This document shows positions 36,663-44,875 of a DNA stretch of 64,000 nucleotides, in pieces (the stretch's first letter is position 1; each line of letters opens with the position of its first letter). The notes beneath the pieces are model-generated. The model ran no database searches. It worked only from the letters and a program-made list of their open reading frames with translations, and was not told where the DNA came from. The stretch comes from an uncultured Erythrobacter sp. Lineage in GTDB: Bacteria > Pseudomonadota > Alphaproteobacteria > Sphingomonadales > Sphingomonadaceae. The stretch is from NCBI GenBank assembly GCA_947495695.1, contig CANLZP010000002.1:434001-498000 (forward strand). Reading direction: 5' to 3'. A program made the translations under genes and the position numbers.

Positions 36663-36956
36663 ATGCAATGGACGTCGGTCATTGCGATCTACGCTTTGGT
36701 GTGGGTGATGACGGCCTTTGTGTCCTTACCCTTTGGTGTGCGCACCCATGATGAGCTGGGAGTGGAGAAAACACCCGGCCAAGCAGACAGCGCACCGGCC
36801 AATTTCCAACCTGGCAGGCTCGCTTTGCGAACAACGGTGATCGCGGCGATTCTCACCGCTGTTTACGTGGCGAACTTTGAATATGGCTGGATCACTATTG
36901 ATGATCTCAATCTGATGCCAGAATTGCCATCTGAATCTGAGGCCAGTGGTTCCTAG
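36663..36956 (+). CDS. DUF1467-like small membrane protein
   Basis: MQWTSVIAIYALVWVMTAFVSLPFGVRTHDELGVEKTPGQADSAP; immediately downstream of rnj. Confidence 0.75.
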   Translation: MQWTSVIAIYALVWVMTAFVSLPFGVRTHDELGVEKTPGQADSAPANFQPGRLALRTTVIAAILTAVYVANFEYGWITIDDLNLMPELPSESEASGS

Positions 36957-36957
36957 A

Positions 36958-39594
36958 TTAGTTGCGGAGGCGCTCGATCGCTTGGGCGAGCGCGACATAC
37001 AACTTACCCATATCCGAGCTGAGCAAGGTCACACCCATCGCATTGCCGTCTCTTGTCGACAGGACCGACCGAAGCATGCCTTCGAAATCATGGATGTAGC
37101 GCGAAACATCTTCGCGAAAGGCATCGTCTGACTGATAGAGGTCGACGATCTCGCGTGCTTCACCGCTATCGATCAGTCGCACGGCGCGGCGGGTGAAGAT
37201 GCCGCGATCACCCTTGAGATAGGCGGCCCAAGCAGTGTCCGAGACTTCGTGCGAAAGCGATTTTTCGATATCGATGGCGTTGGAATTCAGGCTGTCGCTG
37301 ATCAATGCCATGCGGCGAGCAAAGTCATTGTTGACCTGCTCTTCGGCCAATTCGCGGGCACGTGACACGCGTTGCTCTAGGTTTCCGGTCAGTTCATTGA
37401 CCATGGCCAGTTGATCGCGCAATTGAATGGCTGCCTCGCGACCCACGCCCGATGCGTGTGCAGCGGCCTGTTCCAATTTGCCAATCGCTTCTGCGCCGTG
37501 GGTGCGCAGTGATTTTTCAACCGCTGCAACGGCCTTTCCGCCAATTTCGTCGGCAACTTTGCTGACATTGTCGGCCGAGCCATGTTCGATGGCTGCAAAC
37601 GCTTCTTTGGTTGCCTGATCAAGCTGATCGATAGCGATCTTCAGCTCGCCCTGCGTACGGCGAGACATCCGCTCATTCTGCTCTTCCAGCTCGGACAATA
37701 GCTTCCGCAGTGCTTTTGCTTGCGCCAATTGATCGTCTGAATGTGCAGCGACACGGGCTTGTTGCTGCTCAACCGCTTCCCCGACCTTTTCGACATTGGC
37801 TTGGGTGGCGATGACATAATCAGAGAGCTCGCTGCCTTTTTGGCCGGCGAGAGAGACCGTTTCGGTAAGTTTGGCCGAGCGCGCTTCGACATCTTCCAGC
37901 AGTTTGCTTGCGCCAGCAATTGCTTCGGGCAAGTCTTCGCGACTTTGCTTCGCGCCCGATTGGATGATCTCCAGCAAGCGAATGCTTGATTCGGTGAGGA
38001 TCGAGAGGCTCTCGCCCGTCTGTTCCAGATCGGCGCGGTTGGCGGTCAGTTTTGCGCCCAGTCCTTCCAGGCCGCCGTCCAATGTCGTGTGGGCCTGTTC
38101 TGCGTGACGGGTTACTTGCTCGAACAGAGCATTTAATTCGCTGACTTTATTGGCGATATCCTCACCATGGGAAACCAGTCGCTCGGTCTCGCGCATTTGT
38201 GCCTCGCGCCGTTCTGCCAATGCCTCGTCAAGCCCGGCAAGGCGCTGTGCCAGAACTTCGCTGGCCTGAGATTCGCGGGTTTCAAACTTGGCCTGGCGAC
38301 GCGCCATTTCCTCGCTGAATTTCACATCCCGCATGGCCAGTTGATCATCGAACTTGACCGCCTCATTGCGCAATTCGGCAACGCGTGATTGCGCCGCTTC
38401 CAAGGCCTTCTGATCCAGCTGATCAATCTCTTGGATGACCTGGGCGACTTCTTGGCGCAAGCGATCCTTCGATTGGACCATCGCCGTCATGGCAGCGGTC
38501 TCTGCATTTCGGAGTGAGGCCGATACGTTCGAACCTTCACCTTGCAAGCTTTCAACTCTGGCCTTGAACAGGCCCATAGCTTCGCTCTCGCTCGTCGCGA
38601 TTTCTTCTTGGATAGCGGTGATGCCTGTGCGTACTTCGTCTGCTCGGCGGCGCATGGCTGCCAAGGCATCCACCTCGCGGCCGTCAAGATCCGTCCTGAA
38701 TTCTTCGCTCTTCTCTTTAAGCGCTTCGAACCGGGCTGCGGAATAATCTTCCAGCTTTGTCACCTGCGCTTCAAATGTGGCCAGCGTTGAGCCAATTTTG
38801 CCGCTCAGCGCCTTGACCATGCCCTCGCTGGCTTTGCCAAACTCGTTCAAACGCTCAAATCCTGCGACAAGCTTTGCCAACTGATCCTGAGCAGTGCGGC
38901 CAGCATTGCCGATTTGATTGGAGACGTCGCGCGCGGAATTGGAGACCACGGGCAAGTCATCGCGCAATTTGGTCATATTGGTCAAAGCCGTGTCACTGAC
39001 GCTGGCGATAGCGTCGACTTGCTTGCCATTGGTTTGGATCAAGCTCTGAAGCTCACCGGCGTGTGTTGAAAGCCGTTCGCTGGCCACGCGGCCCAGCGAT
39101 TCCAATTCGCGGGTTTGCGTACCAAGGAAGTCGCGAGCGAGGCTCAGTTCACGATTGACCACGGACAATCGGCTTTCCAGCGCGTCTGCCTCGATCGATA
39201 GCTTGGTCGCCGCATCGCTAAAACGTGCGGCCTCGCGCTTGCTGATGCGCATGGACAGCATCCAAACGCTGACAACCAACAACACCGGCACAGACCAATT
39301 AATGATCCAGCCCACCCATTGCGCGGGCGTGCCGCCGGCCAACAACTCGCTCTGCAATGCCCAACCATAAAAGCCGGTCCAGCCTGCAATCGCCAGTATG
39401 GCTAGCGTCGGGGCGATCCAGCTCCAATCGCGCCTGCTATCCACGAATTCATCATCCCAGACGGCGTCTTCCTCAGGATCGACCCATTCCTCGTCGAGGG
39501 ACAGAGGCGTTTCGCCCGCATCTTCTGAGGATTGATCGGGCGCCTTTTGCGCTGCGTCTGAGCCTATCGCTCTGATATTTGATCCGCCGGACAT
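36958..39594 (-). CDS. Large (878 aa) membrane-anchored coiled-coil protein, function unknown
   Basis: Two hydrophobic segments near the N-terminus (WIAPTLAILAIAGWTGFYGWAL, WIINWSVPVLLVVSVWML) followed by a long helical/coiled-coil region. Confidence 0.85.
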   Translation of the reverse strand: MSGGSNIRAIGSDAAQKAPDQSSEDAGETPLSLDEEWVDPEEDAVWDDEFVDSRRDWSWIAPTLAILAIAGWTGFYGWALQSELLAGGTPAQWVGWIINWSVPVLLVVSVWMLSMRISKREAARFSDAATKLSIEADALESRLSVVNRELSLARDFLGTQTRELESLGRVASERLSTHAGELQSLIQTNGKQVDAIASVSDTALTNMTKLRDDLPVVSNSARDVSNQIGNAGRTAQDQLAKLVAGFERLNEFGKASEGMVKALSGKIGSTLATFEAQVTKLEDYSAARFEALKEKSEEFRTDLDGREVDALAAMRRRADEVRTGITAIQEEIATSESEAMGLFKARVESLQGEGSNVSASLRNAETAAMTAMVQSKDRLRQEVAQVIQEIDQLDQKALEAAQSRVAELRNEAVKFDDQLAMRDVKFSEEMARRQAKFETRESQASEVLAQRLAGLDEALAERREAQMRETERLVSHGEDIANKVSELNALFEQVTRHAEQAHTTLDGGLEGLGAKLTANRADLEQTGESLSILTESSIRLLEIIQSGAKQSREDLPEAIAGASKLLEDVEARSAKLTETVSLAGQKGSELSDYVIATQANVEKVGEAVEQQQARVAAHSDDQLAQAKALRKLLSELEEQNERMSRRTQGELKIAIDQLDQATKEAFAAIEHGSADNVSKVADEIGGKAVAAVEKSLRTHGAEAIGKLEQAAAHASGVGREAAIQLRDQLAMVNELTGNLEQRVSRARELAEEQVNNDFARRMALISDSLNSNAIDIEKSLSHEVSDTAWAAYLKGDRGIFTRRAVRLIDSGEAREIVDLYQSDDAFREDVSRYIHDFEGMLRSVLSTRDGNAMGVTLLSSDMGKLYVALAQAIERLRN

Positions 39595-39621
39595 AAGCTG
39601 AAACTACCATTTTTATCGCAA

Positions 39622-39641
39622 GGTTAAACCCCGCTTTAACC
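39622..39641. promoter_or_regulatory. Perfect inverted repeat in the divergent intergenic region (candidate operator)
   Basis: GGTTAAA-CCCCGC-TTTAACC, 7-bp perfect arms, between the starts at 39594 (-) and 39665 (+). Confidence 0.5.
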
Positions 39642-39664
39642 CTCGCTGCGATATTTAGTGCTGC

Positions 39665-39982
39665 ATGGCATATGAAAGCGGAGCATTGGACGCTACTTTG
39701 GCAGCGGCAGCGGGGGATGATTCCGCGCTGATGGCTGAGTTGCGCGGTGCATTTGTCGAAAGCGCTGAACGGAATTTGGATCTGTTGTCCCGCGCGCGCT
39801 GCGATGGCAATTGGCATGTCGCGGCTATGCGTTTGAAAGGGCTGGCCGCCAGTTTTCATGCCGAAGAGCTGATGGTATTGGCTGACGAAGCTTTGGAAGC
39901 AGCGCCGGGCGAACCAACCGTCTTGAGCCGGATTGACGCGCATCTCGCCAAGTTTTCCGCTGGAAATGCTCTCTCAGGATAA
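39665..39982 (+). CDS. Hpt-like helical protein lacking the canonical phospho-acceptor His
   Basis: ESAERNLDLLSRARCDGNWHVAAMRLKGLAASFHAEELMVLADEALEAA resembles Hpt A-H-x-L-K-G-x-A, but the His position is Met (A-M-R-L-K-G). Confidence 0.65.
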   Translation: MAYESGALDATLAAAAGDDSALMAELRGAFVESAERNLDLLSRARCDGNWHVAAMRLKGLAASFHAEELMVLADEALEAAPGEPTVLSRIDAHLAKFSAGNALSG

Positions 39983-40044
39983 TTGCGCTTTGCAGTTGGG
40001 TTGAACCCATCCTACATTCCGTTGGTCTTTCGGGGTCAGCCACA

Positions 40045-41217
40045 TTGCGCATTGCATTACTTTCAAGCACTCATCGTTCGCATGATGGATCGCCACTTGC
40101 ATTTTTGCAGATGGGTGGCCGTAGCGTGCTCGCGTGGCAGGCAGAGCTGGCGCTTTCTCTCGGGTGCGAAAAGATTGTTTGCCTTGGTAACCAGTCCGGA
40201 CCCGAGATTGATGCCGTAAAGCAGAGGGTCGAGGAAAAAGACGCTCAATTCCGGATGATTACGAGCCTTCTGGACTTTGTTGGCCAAGTGTCTTCGGGGC
40301 ATGAAGTGGTGGTGCTTGCCGATGGCGTGATGCTTGATCGCTCGCAATTGCCCGAGCACCTTAAGGACGGTCGCGGGGTGCTTGCCATTCCCGCCGAAGA
40401 GGGCTTGAGCGCCGGTTTCGAGCGGGTGGATGCAGACTATGCCTGGGCCGGATTGCTGGTTGCTCGCGGCGATATTGTCGAGCGTTTGGCCGATTTTCCG
40501 CCCGATAGCGATATTATAGCTCTGCTGCTCAGGCTGGCTTTACAAGCGCGTACTCCACTGATCAGTCTGGGATCGGAAGTCCTTGAAAATGGTGATCTAA
40601 TTCTGGCGGTGGACGAATCAGCACTGGCCGAGCGCGAAGATATGTTGATCGCTCAGAGCGCCAGCCGCATTTCTTGGATGGGGCCGGGCAATGCTATTGC
40701 TGCAAGGGTGGCGCAAGCTTTGGCTCCGCGGTCTCTGGAGGCCGGACCCCTCATAGCTGGAGGTTTAAGTTTTGCCCTGATCACGGTCGGCGTGGTTAGT
40801 GCGTGGGCAGGGCTCCAGTCTGTGGGCCTGGGATTGCTCAGCGCTGGGGTGCTAAGCCGAGCCATCCAGACCGCGCTCAAGAACTTGAAGCAGCGCCTCT
40901 ATGCGGAAACAGGCGGCGAAAGGTTCTCAAAATATATCAATTGGATAATTGATCTTCTTCTGGTGATTTCTCTCGCTGTCCCTTTGACGCTGAAGGGTGC
41001 GCATGAGGCCTTGTTCTTGCCCGTTGTTTTGCTTGGTCTGGTGCGGCTTGCAACCAACCTCAGCCCCGATCGGTTCAAACCCTTGCTATCCGATAGGATT
41101 GTGCTGGGTATTGGTTTGGCCACAGCATCCCATTTCGGGCTCTTGCCGGAAGTCATGGGCGGTTTGACGCTGGTGACGCTGGCCGCCGCGCTGATCTTTC
41201 AGTCAAAGTTGAGATAA
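40045..41217 (+). CDS. GT-A/nucleotidyltransferase-like N-terminal domain fused to a polytopic membrane domain
   Basis: MGGRSVLAWQAELALSLGCEKIVCLG...GHEVVVLADGVMLD resembles an NTase-type Rossmann fold; several TM-like segments after about residue 245. TTG start. Confidence 0.6.
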   Translation: MRIALLSSTHRSHDGSPLAFLQMGGRSVLAWQAELALSLGCEKIVCLGNQSGPEIDAVKQRVEEKDAQFRMITSLLDFVGQVSSGHEVVVLADGVMLDRSQLPEHLKDGRGVLAIPAEEGLSAGFERVDADYAWAGLLVARGDIVERLADFPPDSDIIALLLRLALQARTPLISLGSEVLENGDLILAVDESALAEREDMLIAQSASRISWMGPGNAIAARVAQALAPRSLEAGPLIAGGLSFALITVGVVSAWAGLQSVGLGLLSAGVLSRAIQTALKNLKQRLYAETGGERFSKYINWIIDLLLVISLAVPLTLKGAHEALFLPVVLLGLVRLATNLSPDRFKPLLSDRIVLGIGLATASHFGLLPEVMGGLTLVTLAAALIFQSKLR

Positions 41218-41251
41218 CGCTGAGTTAACTATGCTGCGCTATGTGCGTGCG

Positions 41252-42208
41252 ATGAGCAATGATGCCATGAACAACCCGACGGATACAGACCCGCTGACCG
41301 CATTGCGTGCAGAACTTGCTCGCGGCGATCAGGCGTTGGCGGGTGTCGCGCCTGTTCTTGTGCATTTGCTCGGCCAATCCGGCCAAAGCCTGGTGAGCGA
41401 CCAGACCTTGGCACACCTTCGCGGAATGATGGATGATTTGGCGCGGCAATTGCTAACCCAGCTTGCCTCACAGGGCGTCGATGAGCAGACAATCGACCCA
41501 GTCCTGAAACATGATTTGGCCAATCGCCTTTCCGGCAACACGCAATTGCTCAGCCATTGCTTTGCCCTTTGTGCAGAGGCCCAGCTCAGCCAGCGTCTGG
41601 AGCGCGAACACCATATCGATCAGGTGCTATCGCCCCTGATGCAGGAATTGATTGCCTCCAGCGATGAGGCATTGGCCGAGTTGGCCATGAGCACGATGGT
41701 GGCACAAGGTCGCTTTGTTCAAAGCCAATCGCGGATGTCCTTGCCGATCCAAGAATTGCCCGCCGACCTTTTTCGCCAAGTAATTGCGATTAGCCAAGCG
41801 GTGTTGGCCAATGACACGAATGAGCAATTCGAACTGGCCAGCGCAAAGCTGAAGGAACAATTTGACGAGGCTGGCAGCCGGATTGCGCTGCTTTCCCATT
41901 TGATCACATCGCTTCGCGGTGGAGCAAGCGTTGCGCTCAATCTTGAGCATGGCGGACTGGCTCTGTTTGCAAGTGCGCTTGCCAGCATTACGGGCCAGCC
42001 GCGTGAATTGGCCGTCTTAGGATGTTCCGAACAACAGCATGCCCGGCTCGCTTTCGGATTGCGAGCCGCAGCCTTGCCATCAGAGCAAATCGAGCGCGTA
42101 ATGGCGATTGTGCATCCGCAAATTGATTTGTCATCCGCCTTTACGAATTTGTCCGCACAGGCTGCGCAAGACATGTTGAGCCAGCTGCCGGCAAGGACGG
42201 GGCGGTAA
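41252..42208 (+). CDS. All-helical protein, possibly DUF2336-like
   Basis: Predominantly helical Leu/Ala-rich sequence; 3 bp upstream of the HK-like gene. Start ATG 41252 or 41231. Family call is tentative. Confidence 0.55.
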   Translation: MSNDAMNNPTDTDPLTALRAELARGDQALAGVAPVLVHLLGQSGQSLVSDQTLAHLRGMMDDLARQLLTQLASQGVDEQTIDPVLKHDLANRLSGNTQLLSHCFALCAEAQLSQRLEREHHIDQVLSPLMQELIASSDEALAELAMSTMVAQGRFVQSQSRMSLPIQELPADLFRQVIAISQAVLANDTNEQFELASAKLKEQFDEAGSRIALLSHLITSLRGGASVALNLEHGGLALFASALASITGQPRELAVLGCSEQQHARLAFGLRAAALPSEQIERVMAIVHPQIDLSSAFTNLSAQAAQDMLSQLPARTGR

Positions 42209-42211
42209 GAC

Positions 42212-43588
42212 ATGGCGAGTGCATCACCAATCTTGGCAGCGCGTGGCCTGACCGACGAGCAAGGGCATTTGCTATCCGCAGATGCGCCACTGGTCGACTT
42301 GCAGCAACGCTGCGGCGGCACGGTTCCAGGCATGCTGGCCGCGCCAGAATTGCTGGATATTGTTCAGCAATGCCAATCGATGCAATTGCGGCTCGCCCGA
42401 GAATTCAAGGCGTATGATGGGACGGCCATTGTCACGGGGTTTGCGCGGGTGAGCCCGGTCAACAACGCCGAGCATACGGGTTGCGAATTGCTGATAGAGA
42501 ATTGGCAGCGGGAGGAATTGGCACCAGAGGACCAGCGCGCCAGTGCCGAACGTTTGGATGCGGTTGATCGCAGCACAAGCGAATGCCTTGGACGACTCGA
42601 TCGCAATCAGCGCATCCTGTCACTGGATTGCCGTGCGTCAGACCTTGTCGAATTGGCGAAGGCGGTCCGGGCGCATCCGGGGCAGGTGTGGTCAGACTAT
42701 GTCGAGTTGGTCGGCGTCGCCCATCGGCAACCGCTTCATTGGCGATTGTTGGACGGTGTTCAGTGCACCGTGCCGGGCTCTGATCGAAAATGGACAGCTC
42801 GATTGCTGCCTTTGGGAGGTGCAACCGCATCACCCAGCGGATTTGAGTTGCTGCTGGTTGCCGACAGCCCATTGCCAAGGGATCGATCGAATGATCCACA
42901 TCGCCAGTCGCCCGCCAGCCTTATCGGCGATGCTCTGACGTCTTCACTGCGCGATCCGATCACCCGGGTGATTGGTAATGCTGAAACGATCCGCACCCGC
43001 ATGGCCGGACCATTGCGTCAGGAATATAGCGACTATGCCGGTGATATTGCCACCGCTGGACAGCATTTGCTGGGGCTGTTGGATGATCTAACCGATCTTG
43101 AAGTGGTGGAAGCTGAGAACTTCAAGCCTGCCGCTGACAGGATCGATCTGGCCGAAGCCGCACGCAAAGCCGTGTCCATTCTGGGTGAAAAAGCCCGCGA
43201 TCATGGGATCAGCATCTCTATTCCCGACGAGAGAGCCTTTGCGCCCGCCGTGGGAGAGATGCGGCGGGTGTTGCAGATCTTGCTCAATCTGTTGGGCAAT
43301 GCGATCAATTACGCGCCGCGCAATTCAGCCATCATCTTGAGCGTTGGTTCCGATGCCAAAGGACGCACGACGGTCAGCGTCAGCGACGAAGGTCCCGGAT
43401 TGTCAGATGACCAACAATCGCGCGTTTTCCGCAAATTTGAACGACTTGGCAGGGACGGTGATGGAGGCTCAGGCCTTGGCCTGTATATCTCGCAACGGTT
43501 GGCACTCGCCATGAAGGGCGAATTGCTGATCGATAGCGAGGAGGGGAAGGGCGCCCGATTTACGCTCGCCCTTCCTCCCGGTAACTGA
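42212..43588 (+). CDS. Histidine-kinase-like protein with intact HATPase_c but substituted H-box
   Basis: LTSSLRDPITRVIGNAETIRTRMAGPLRQEYSDYAGDIATAGQHLLGLLDDLTDLE aligns to HisKA (MSHELRTPL...) with His replaced by Ser; LLNLLGNAINYAP (N box), DEGPGL, GSGLGLYISQRLALAMKGELLIDSEEGKGARFTLALP. Confidence 0.85.
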   Translation: MASASPILAARGLTDEQGHLLSADAPLVDLQQRCGGTVPGMLAAPELLDIVQQCQSMQLRLAREFKAYDGTAIVTGFARVSPVNNAEHTGCELLIENWQREELAPEDQRASAERLDAVDRSTSECLGRLDRNQRILSLDCRASDLVELAKAVRAHPGQVWSDYVELVGVAHRQPLHWRLLDGVQCTVPGSDRKWTARLLPLGGATASPSGFELLLVADSPLPRDRSNDPHRQSPASLIGDALTSSLRDPITRVIGNAETIRTRMAGPLRQEYSDYAGDIATAGQHLLGLLDDLTDLEVVEAENFKPAADRIDLAEAARKAVSILGEKARDHGISISIPDERAFAPAVGEMRRVLQILLNLLGNAINYAPRNSAIILSVGSDAKGRTTVSVSDEGPGLSDDQQSRVFRKFERLGRDGDGGSGLGLYISQRLALAMKGELLIDSEEGKGARFTLALPPGN

Positions 43589-44875
43589 TTAGCGGTTGAC
43601 CAGCGGCACGTAGTCGCGCTGGGTCGGTCCGGTGTAAAGCTGACGCGGACGACCAATAACCTGACCTGGATCAGAGATCATTTCATTCCACTGTGCCACC
43701 CAGCCCACGGTACGCGCGAGGGCGAACAGAGCGGTAAACATGGTGGTCGGGAAGCCGATCGAAGACAGGATGATGCCTGAATAGAAGTCCACATTCGGGA
43801 ACAGCTTCTTCTCTTTGAAATAATCGTCATTCAGCGCCAATTCTTCCAAACGAAGAGCGGTTTCGAACACGGGATCATCAACCTTCAGCGCTTCGAACAC
43901 TTCCTTCAAGGTCTGCTGCATAACAGTCGCGCGAGGATCGTAATTCTTATAAACCCGGTGGCCAAAGCCCATCAGACGGAACGGATCGTTCTTGTCCTTG
44001 GCCCGCTCGATATAGTGCGGGATACGATCAGGAGATCCAATTTCCTGCAGCATATTCAACGCGGCTTCGTTCGCGCCGCCATGGGCAGGGCCCCACAGGC
44101 ATGCGATGCCCGCAGCGATACAGGCAAATGGGTTGGCGCCCGAAGAACCGGCAAGGCGAACGGTCGAAGTTGATGCATTCTGTTCGTGATCGGCATGGAG
44201 GATGAAAATCCGGTCCATTGCCTTTTCAATCGCTGGGTGCACTTCATATTCTTCTGCTGGCACACCAAAGGTCATGCGCAGGAAGTTACCCGTATAGCTG
44301 AGCGAATTGTCCGGCTGCATCATGGGCTGGCCGATGGAATATTTATAGGCCATCGCCGCAATGGTCGGCATCTTTGCGATCAAGCGGTGGCTGCTGATCT
44401 TGCGGTGCTCTGGGTCAGAAATGTCGGTGCTGTCGTGATAGAATGCAGACAAAGCACCAACCACGCCGCACATAATCGCCATCGGGTGCGCATCACGGCG
44501 GAAGCCTTGATAGAATTGACGCAGCTGATCGTGCAGCATCGTATGGCGAGTGATGGTGTAAGAGAAATCGTCCAGTTCTTCCTTGCTGGGCAATTCGCCA
44601 TTCAACAGAAGATAGGATGTTTCCATAAAGCTGGATTGCTCGGCCAGCTGACCGATCGGATAGCCACGGTGCAACAAGACACCTTCGTTGCCATCGATAT
44701 AGGTCAGCGCGCTTTCGCAGCTGGCGGTCGATTTGTAGCCGGGATCAAATGTAAAGGCTCCGGTTTGGCCATACAGCTTGCGAATATCGATTACGTCCGG
44801 GCCAACGCTGCCCTCGAGAACGGGATAATCGTGTGTCTGCCCGCCTAAATCGAGTTTTGCCTGCTTGTCCGCCAA
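43589..44875 (-). CDS. gltA: Citrate synthase
   Basis: [74 protein letters not shown]. Confidence 0.98.

Follow-up and report, generated by a model that had tools for sequence, protein, structure and literature searches.

The window analyzed here, the whole 64,000-nucleotide stretch from an uncultured Erythrobacter sp., carries a block of five genes (TIP, HPT, GTA, HEL and HK) in which both proteins of phosphorelay type, the histidine phosphotransfer (Hpt)-like HPT and the histidine kinase-like HK, lack the phospho-acceptor His. The block is conserved in most of the family, the ATP site of HK is retained, and the receiver and second Hpt that accompany related genes elsewhere were not found in the sampled genomes with a His-less kinase. 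Sequence comparisons make the origin of the block from a phosphorelay well supported. We give about an even chance to the view that it represents a decommissioned phosphorelay, repurposed as a phosphotransfer-independent, ATP-binding regulatory complex that would be linked to TIP and to the CtrA programme.

Loss of the phospho-acceptor histidines

HK is matched by two Pfam families, HATPase_c (E 6e-23) and HisKA (E 1.4e-5, slightly short of the family cut-off). Among solved structures, those closest to HK are ordinary histidine kinases, and DivL is matched at E 4e-15. The column of the H-box His holds Ser244 in the window protein and a residue other than His in 54 of the 56 kinases compared (window included), most commonly Pro (32), whereas Tyr, the DivL residue, occurs in none. 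None of the 56 has an acidic residue at position +1 (Ser245 in the window), and at position +4, occupied by Asp248 in the window, Thr is present in two kinases and Asn in one. HK therefore lacks the acceptor His, the +1 acidic residue and the +4 Thr/Asn of a histidine kinase and keeps its ATP boxes: N359, N363, D392, G394, F406, G419, G421 and G423 are 100% conserved and G396 is 96% conserved. The DHp helix is also strongly conserved (R252, I253, A257, Y272, Y275, A276, A282, H285).

Two kinases of one genus, L102 and L104, do carry His at the acceptor column, and the general statement that every block kinase lacks it was rejected. In their genomes (G170 and G085; about 2.1 Mb, a small-genome genus) the column His is followed by Ser, and HPT was not found beside TIP. 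This His may reflect regain, retention or chance.

A protein that has no acceptor of its own yet keeps its ATP boxes intact is what would be expected if HK worked in trans, either by heterodimerizing with a canonical kinase or by acting on some other protein, with its ATP domain phosphorylating the partner. We consider this improbable, as the acidic residue beside the His is lost in 56/56 kinases (although this concerns the DHp side only) and no partner kinase is linked to the block.

The 105-residue HPT has no Pfam match, and both Pfam and NCBIfam were uninformative. Its AlphaFold2 model has a pLDDT of 90.5. The structure prediction suggested by the original prediction recovered the Hpt fold: in a search of the PDB with this model, ranks 1-10 were all Hpt proteins or domains, with probabilities of 0.44-0.99 and E-values that were not significant. 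In addition, the HPT profile aligns true Hpt domains from elsewhere in the class, their His falling on Met55. Both the model and the profile matches thus assign the four-helix Hpt fold to HPT, which nevertheless lacks the acceptor: none of 39 homologues (window included) has His at this column, where Met, Leu, Trp, Gln, Glu or Ala is found instead. A new motif, MAYESGALDA, is conserved in HPT.

The claim that both proteins had lost their defining His therefore held, for 54/56 homologues of HK and 39/39 of HPT. Because close homologues likewise lack it, a strain-specific mutation, which the original prediction had named as a possible refutation, is excluded. Alternatively, another residue of HK or HPT might take the phosphate, with the relay still running. 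Some His does lie near the acceptor site in 14/56 HK and 6/39 HPT sequences; however, these His residues do not share a position, Pro occupies the site in most HK proteins, the HPT column holds hydrophobic residues (with Gln and Glu also occurring), and the receiver is absent. Such hidden catalysis seems to us very improbable.

Conservation and organization of the block

We took the window's own family to be Sphingomonadaceae, which comprises many genera. At a threshold of E <= 1e-45, an HK homologue is present in 111 of its 151 genomes, representing 70 of 96 genera. Linkage was analyzed in 55 loci from 55 genomes; these were picked for their HK match and so measure linkage, not frequency. HEL and HK are adjacent in 52/52 loci and GTA and HEL in 47/47, HPT and GTA share a strand in 36/36 (34 of them within 300 bp), and TIP and HPT are divergent in 38/38. 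This recurring adjacency across the genomes of the family rejects chance clustering and bears out the proposed linkage of the genes, their joint action remaining an inference.

The description of the cluster as self-contained stood in part. The genes are linked, yet all five occur together in 35/55 loci and two sub-modules, TIP/HPT and GTA-HEL-HK, are separable: in G152, GTA-HEL-HK lies near 0.44 Mb and HPT with TIP near 0.765 Mb, and G065 is a further case. Together with the presence of rnj, coaX and gltA as neighbours in many loci, this separability is what one would expect if chromosomal inertia merely held together genes with separate jobs. On the other hand, the block holds together in four loci with no rnj or gltA detected alongside (L084, L085, L108, L109), so that the linkage is more than regional synteny. 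HPT is also usually missing where HK is missing: among 20 genomes of the same family without a strong HK match, 18 also lack an HPT match, while 19 retain TIP. We regard unrelated neighbours as a highly unlikely explanation.

The layout proposed for the window, four co-directional genes (39665-43588) divergent from an 878-residue coiled-coil protein gene, was verified in every coordinate and orientation (Table 1). The block is indeed tight against both neighbours, with gltA starting at 43589 on one side. On the other, a 97-residue open reading frame with hydrophobic segments (36663-36956, +) sits between rnj and TIP and ends 2 bases before the TIP stop.

Table 1. Features of the block and its surroundings (window positions)
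Feature	Position	Strand	Description
TIP	36958-39594	-	878-residue protein, divergent partner of the operon; hydrophobic segments at the N terminus, a long coiled coil and a conserved domain at the C terminus
TIP C-terminal conserved domain	36961-37341	-	no Pfam family, no solved relative
WAAAC-N6-TTAAS element, CtrA-box-like	39625-39641	+	in the TIP/HPT divergent gap; TAAACCCCGCTTTAACC preceded by one T
HPT	39665-39982	+	105 residues, Hpt fold without phospho-acceptor His; Met55 is codon 39827-39829
GTA	40045-41217	+	degenerate NTP-transferase-like and CDP-alcohol-phosphatidyltransferase-like membrane protein; TTG start uncertain
HEL	41231-42208	+	all-helical, divergent DUF2336 protein; internal start near 41252 possible
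HK	42212-43588	+	pseudo-histidine kinase; Ser244 (codon 42941-42943) in place of His
HATPase_c (ATP-binding) domain of HK	43262-43579	+	residues 351-456; ATP-site residues conserved
gltA	43589-44875	-	convergent with HK, abutting the HK stop

GTA and HEL

GTA is colinear over both domains with fusion proteins of about 450 residues that combine an NTP-transferase-like and a CDP-alcohol-phosphatidyltransferase domain (best E 2.6e-30). The CDP-alcohol motif DG...AR...G...D...D is gone from the block GTAs, a single chance DGRPAR being seen among 51. By contrast, the motif is present, as DGVDGKLAR, in 5/9 relatives from the other families of the order, and a CDP-alcohol motif is also intact in G078. 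As read from the alignment, the GT-A half of those other-family relatives already lacks the classic nucleotidyltransferase signature. The block GTAs have in turn a new conserved motif, FERID...WAG.

For HEL, Pfam and NCBIfam gave nothing useful and a PDB fold search with its model found no match. Its identity comes from profile comparison rather than from the fold search: hhalign aligned HEL with DUF2336 (PF10098) over 310 columns (probability 99.65, E 4e-25), which identifies it as a divergent member of this family at the level of sequence profiles. The window copy is too diverged for a Pfam match; the G110 copy passes the Pfam cut-off.

Loss of catalytic residues in HK, HPT and GTA alike could mean that these genes are functionless remnants of a dying pathway, as could the fast-evolving members L091 and L334. 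In one further locus, L089 (G197:C1:319282-320613), TGA interrupts the kinase frame; either this copy is broken or the sequence is in error. Yet all but one of the listed block kinases have open frames, across 70/96 genera; the ATP site is invariant, and HPT and GTA have acquired the conserved motifs given above. Decay is, in our estimate, extremely improbable.

Origin from a phosphorelay

The cluster had been described as uncharacterized, which needs qualification: an ancestor can be identified for all four of the co-directional genes. Divergent from TIP, other families of the order and class often have a true Hpt (acceptor His in 15/15 found). Within the order but outside this family, an FGPDRRR-tailed receiver and then a second Hpt often come next. 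Compact sets of this kind beside TIP, comprising an Hpt, a lone FGPDRRR-tail receiver and a second Hpt with HDMKGQGGTFGY, were observed at L208:7393-9483 and also in L209, L211, L213 and L223-L227; each has the look of a phosphorelay not described before. HPT and the second Hpt family show no significant similarity in profile comparison, and we therefore trace HPT to the first Hpt beside TIP.

The nearest His-bearing kinases are 36-37% identical to HK; in 4/4 genomes examined a DUF2336 gene immediately precedes them, giving the same order as HEL-HK. DUF2336 relatives either adjoin TIP or sit directly upstream of these kinases. In a kinase tree computed without the H-box, the His-bearing kinases of other families form, together with those of three genomes of the same family (G102, G113, G073), a grade outside the block-kinase clade (99/88). 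Two changes are enough to account for the His state on this tree, namely one loss together with what looks like a regain, or a misplacement, in a single genus. The joining of L334 and L091 is a long-branch meeting and was not used.

Several deep-branching genomes are intermediate between the ancestral and the block state. G102 has TIP/Hpt(His)-receiver-Hpt2 plus DUF2336-HK(His), G113 has TIP/receiver-Hpt2-GTA plus DUF2336-HK(His), and G073 has GTA-HEL-HK(His). In G078 the GTA carries the new ERID motif and still has its CDP-alcohol motif intact, but the HK lacks the His. The receiver is present in G102, G113 and 3/4 other-family genomes searched; the search found it in none of 36 block genomes and also not in G078, G065 or G073. 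In a smaller sample the second Hpt shows the same presence and absence, and it was not found in the sampled genomes with a His-less kinase.

The absence of a linked receiver bears on the parallel with DivL. This Caulobacter HisKA-type pseudo-histidine kinase has Tyr at the acceptor site (Ala in one species) and binds ATP weakly (PMC4211667). Like HK, it is an alphaproteobacterial HisKA-type protein without the acceptor His, and it is functional as a binding module. As a pseudokinase analogy the precedent stands; it does not extend to the substituted residue, which varies in HK (mostly Pro, Ser in the window), or to the ATP site, fully kept here, and in the block the Hpt and receiver are affected too. 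HK might still act as a sensor of the same type, binding an unlinked DivK-type receiver through its helical DHp surface, reading its phosphorylation and relaying this allosterically to another kinase. Both the strongly conserved DHp residues and DivL itself speak for such a role. With the linked receiver absent, no unlinked partner identified and an invariant ATP site in place of weak ATP binding, we consider it possible but rather unlikely.

CtrA-type promoter elements and TIP

The TIP/HPT gap contains TTAAACCCCGCTTTAAC, the only WAAAC-N6-TTAAS match in the window. In 16/39 homologous gaps the same element is present, placed 22-26 bp upstream of the HPT ATG; the 55 block loci contain no further copy. 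The divergent region yielded no sigma-70-type promoter. The CtrA consensus is TTAA-N7-TTAA (PMC9437464). Across 1.34 Mb of neighbourhood loci this motif occurs 26 times, and 17 of the 26 occurrences lie in TIP, HPT or DUF2336 promoter windows against 0.9 expected (P 1.7e-19), a value to be read with the homologous promoters not being independent events and the promoters being TTAA-rich. Enrichment extends, more weakly, to spacings of 8 and 10 but not to the control motifs; N7 differs from the other spacings pooled (Fisher P 0.0003).

In several families TTAA-N7-TTAA stands directly upstream of DUF2336 genes (L218:3644, L219:2499, L223:2990, L224:10539, L225:2941, L328:6694, L329:16628), and PF10098 occurs in Caulobacter vibrioides too. 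Judging from these sites, regulation by CtrA may be a general feature of the DUF2336 family.

The C-terminal domain of TIP (DTAWAAYLKGDRG...SSDMGKLYVALAQAIERLR) has a wide distribution in Alphaproteobacteria, with matches in 93 of 240 genomes from the class. When named genomes were scanned with the TIP alignment A10, other Alphaproteobacteria were matched, mostly Rhodospirillales/Kiloniellales, with no Caulobacter listed. TIP is similar in anatomy to the Caulobacter polarity protein TipN, a resemblance of general layout only.

Proposed function

We propose the following course of events. In the ancestor, TIP would have been divergent from a true Hpt that was accompanied by a receiver and a second Hpt, and a DUF2336-histidine kinase pair would have lain elsewhere. 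The kinase and Hpt acceptor His, the receiver and the second Hpt would then have been lost in the ancestors of most of the family, and a bifunctional transferase without its CDP-alcohol motif would have joined the cluster. Selection may have kept the remaining genes as a phosphotransfer-independent complex: HK would bind ATP and switch conformation, with the pseudo-Hpt, the DUF2336-like HEL and the transferase-like GTA as its binding partners at a membrane site marked by TIP. CtrA would time expression, the block probably being part of the CtrA cell-cycle/motility programme. In its most specific form, the scheme is that loss of the kinase His, the Hpt His, the receiver and the second Hpt turned a phosphorelay into a scaffold switched by ATP and free of phosphate transfer. 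In most of the family this scaffold, together with a degenerate lipid-transferase-like protein, would act on a membrane coiled-coil organizer under the control of CtrA. We hold this form tentatively, at somewhat below even odds. The non-canonical signalling envisaged by the original prediction, here as a pseudo-phosphorelay, is supported.

Several points weigh against the proposed scheme. HPT was not found in 17/55 loci and GTA in 5/55, so that not every part is needed everywhere. The kinases of one genus carry the column His, as described above. Other receivers of the genome could serve as partners. The window element has one mismatch to the CtrA consensus at N7 spacing, to which the reservations on the motif statistics are to be added.

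Relation to known systems and significance

HPT resembles Hpt proteins (PF01627) in its fold and aligned acceptor position, and the outgroup genes beside TIP are true Hpts; it differs from them in having neither the His nor a Pfam match. The Arabidopsis pseudo-Hpt AHP6 lost its His. This plant protein still regulates, inhibiting an active relay (PMC3572949), whereas the receiver of the relay was not found here. The nearest bacterial analogy is HmrB of Caulobacter, an atypical Hpt without HxxKG that is predicted to form a helical hairpin dimer (PMC11481889). Like HPT it is small, helical and encoded in an alphaproteobacterial signalling cluster, but two His are needed for its function. No paper among those searched names DUF2336 or PF10098, nor was the cluster found described. 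Pseudokinases occurring in isolation are already known, as is a pseudo-Hpt; we found no described case in which the kinase and the Hpt of one cluster have both lost their acceptors, with the receiver missing and the cluster preserved family-wide.

Living intermediates allow the order of loss to be read and tested: G102 has a canonical kinase and Hpt, G113 and G073 have a kinase His, and G078 has lost the kinase His beside an intact transferase motif. Among unstudied alphaproteobacterial families, the TIP C-terminal domain, DUF2336 and the receiver/Hpt pair are here linked with each other and with promoters of CtrA type.

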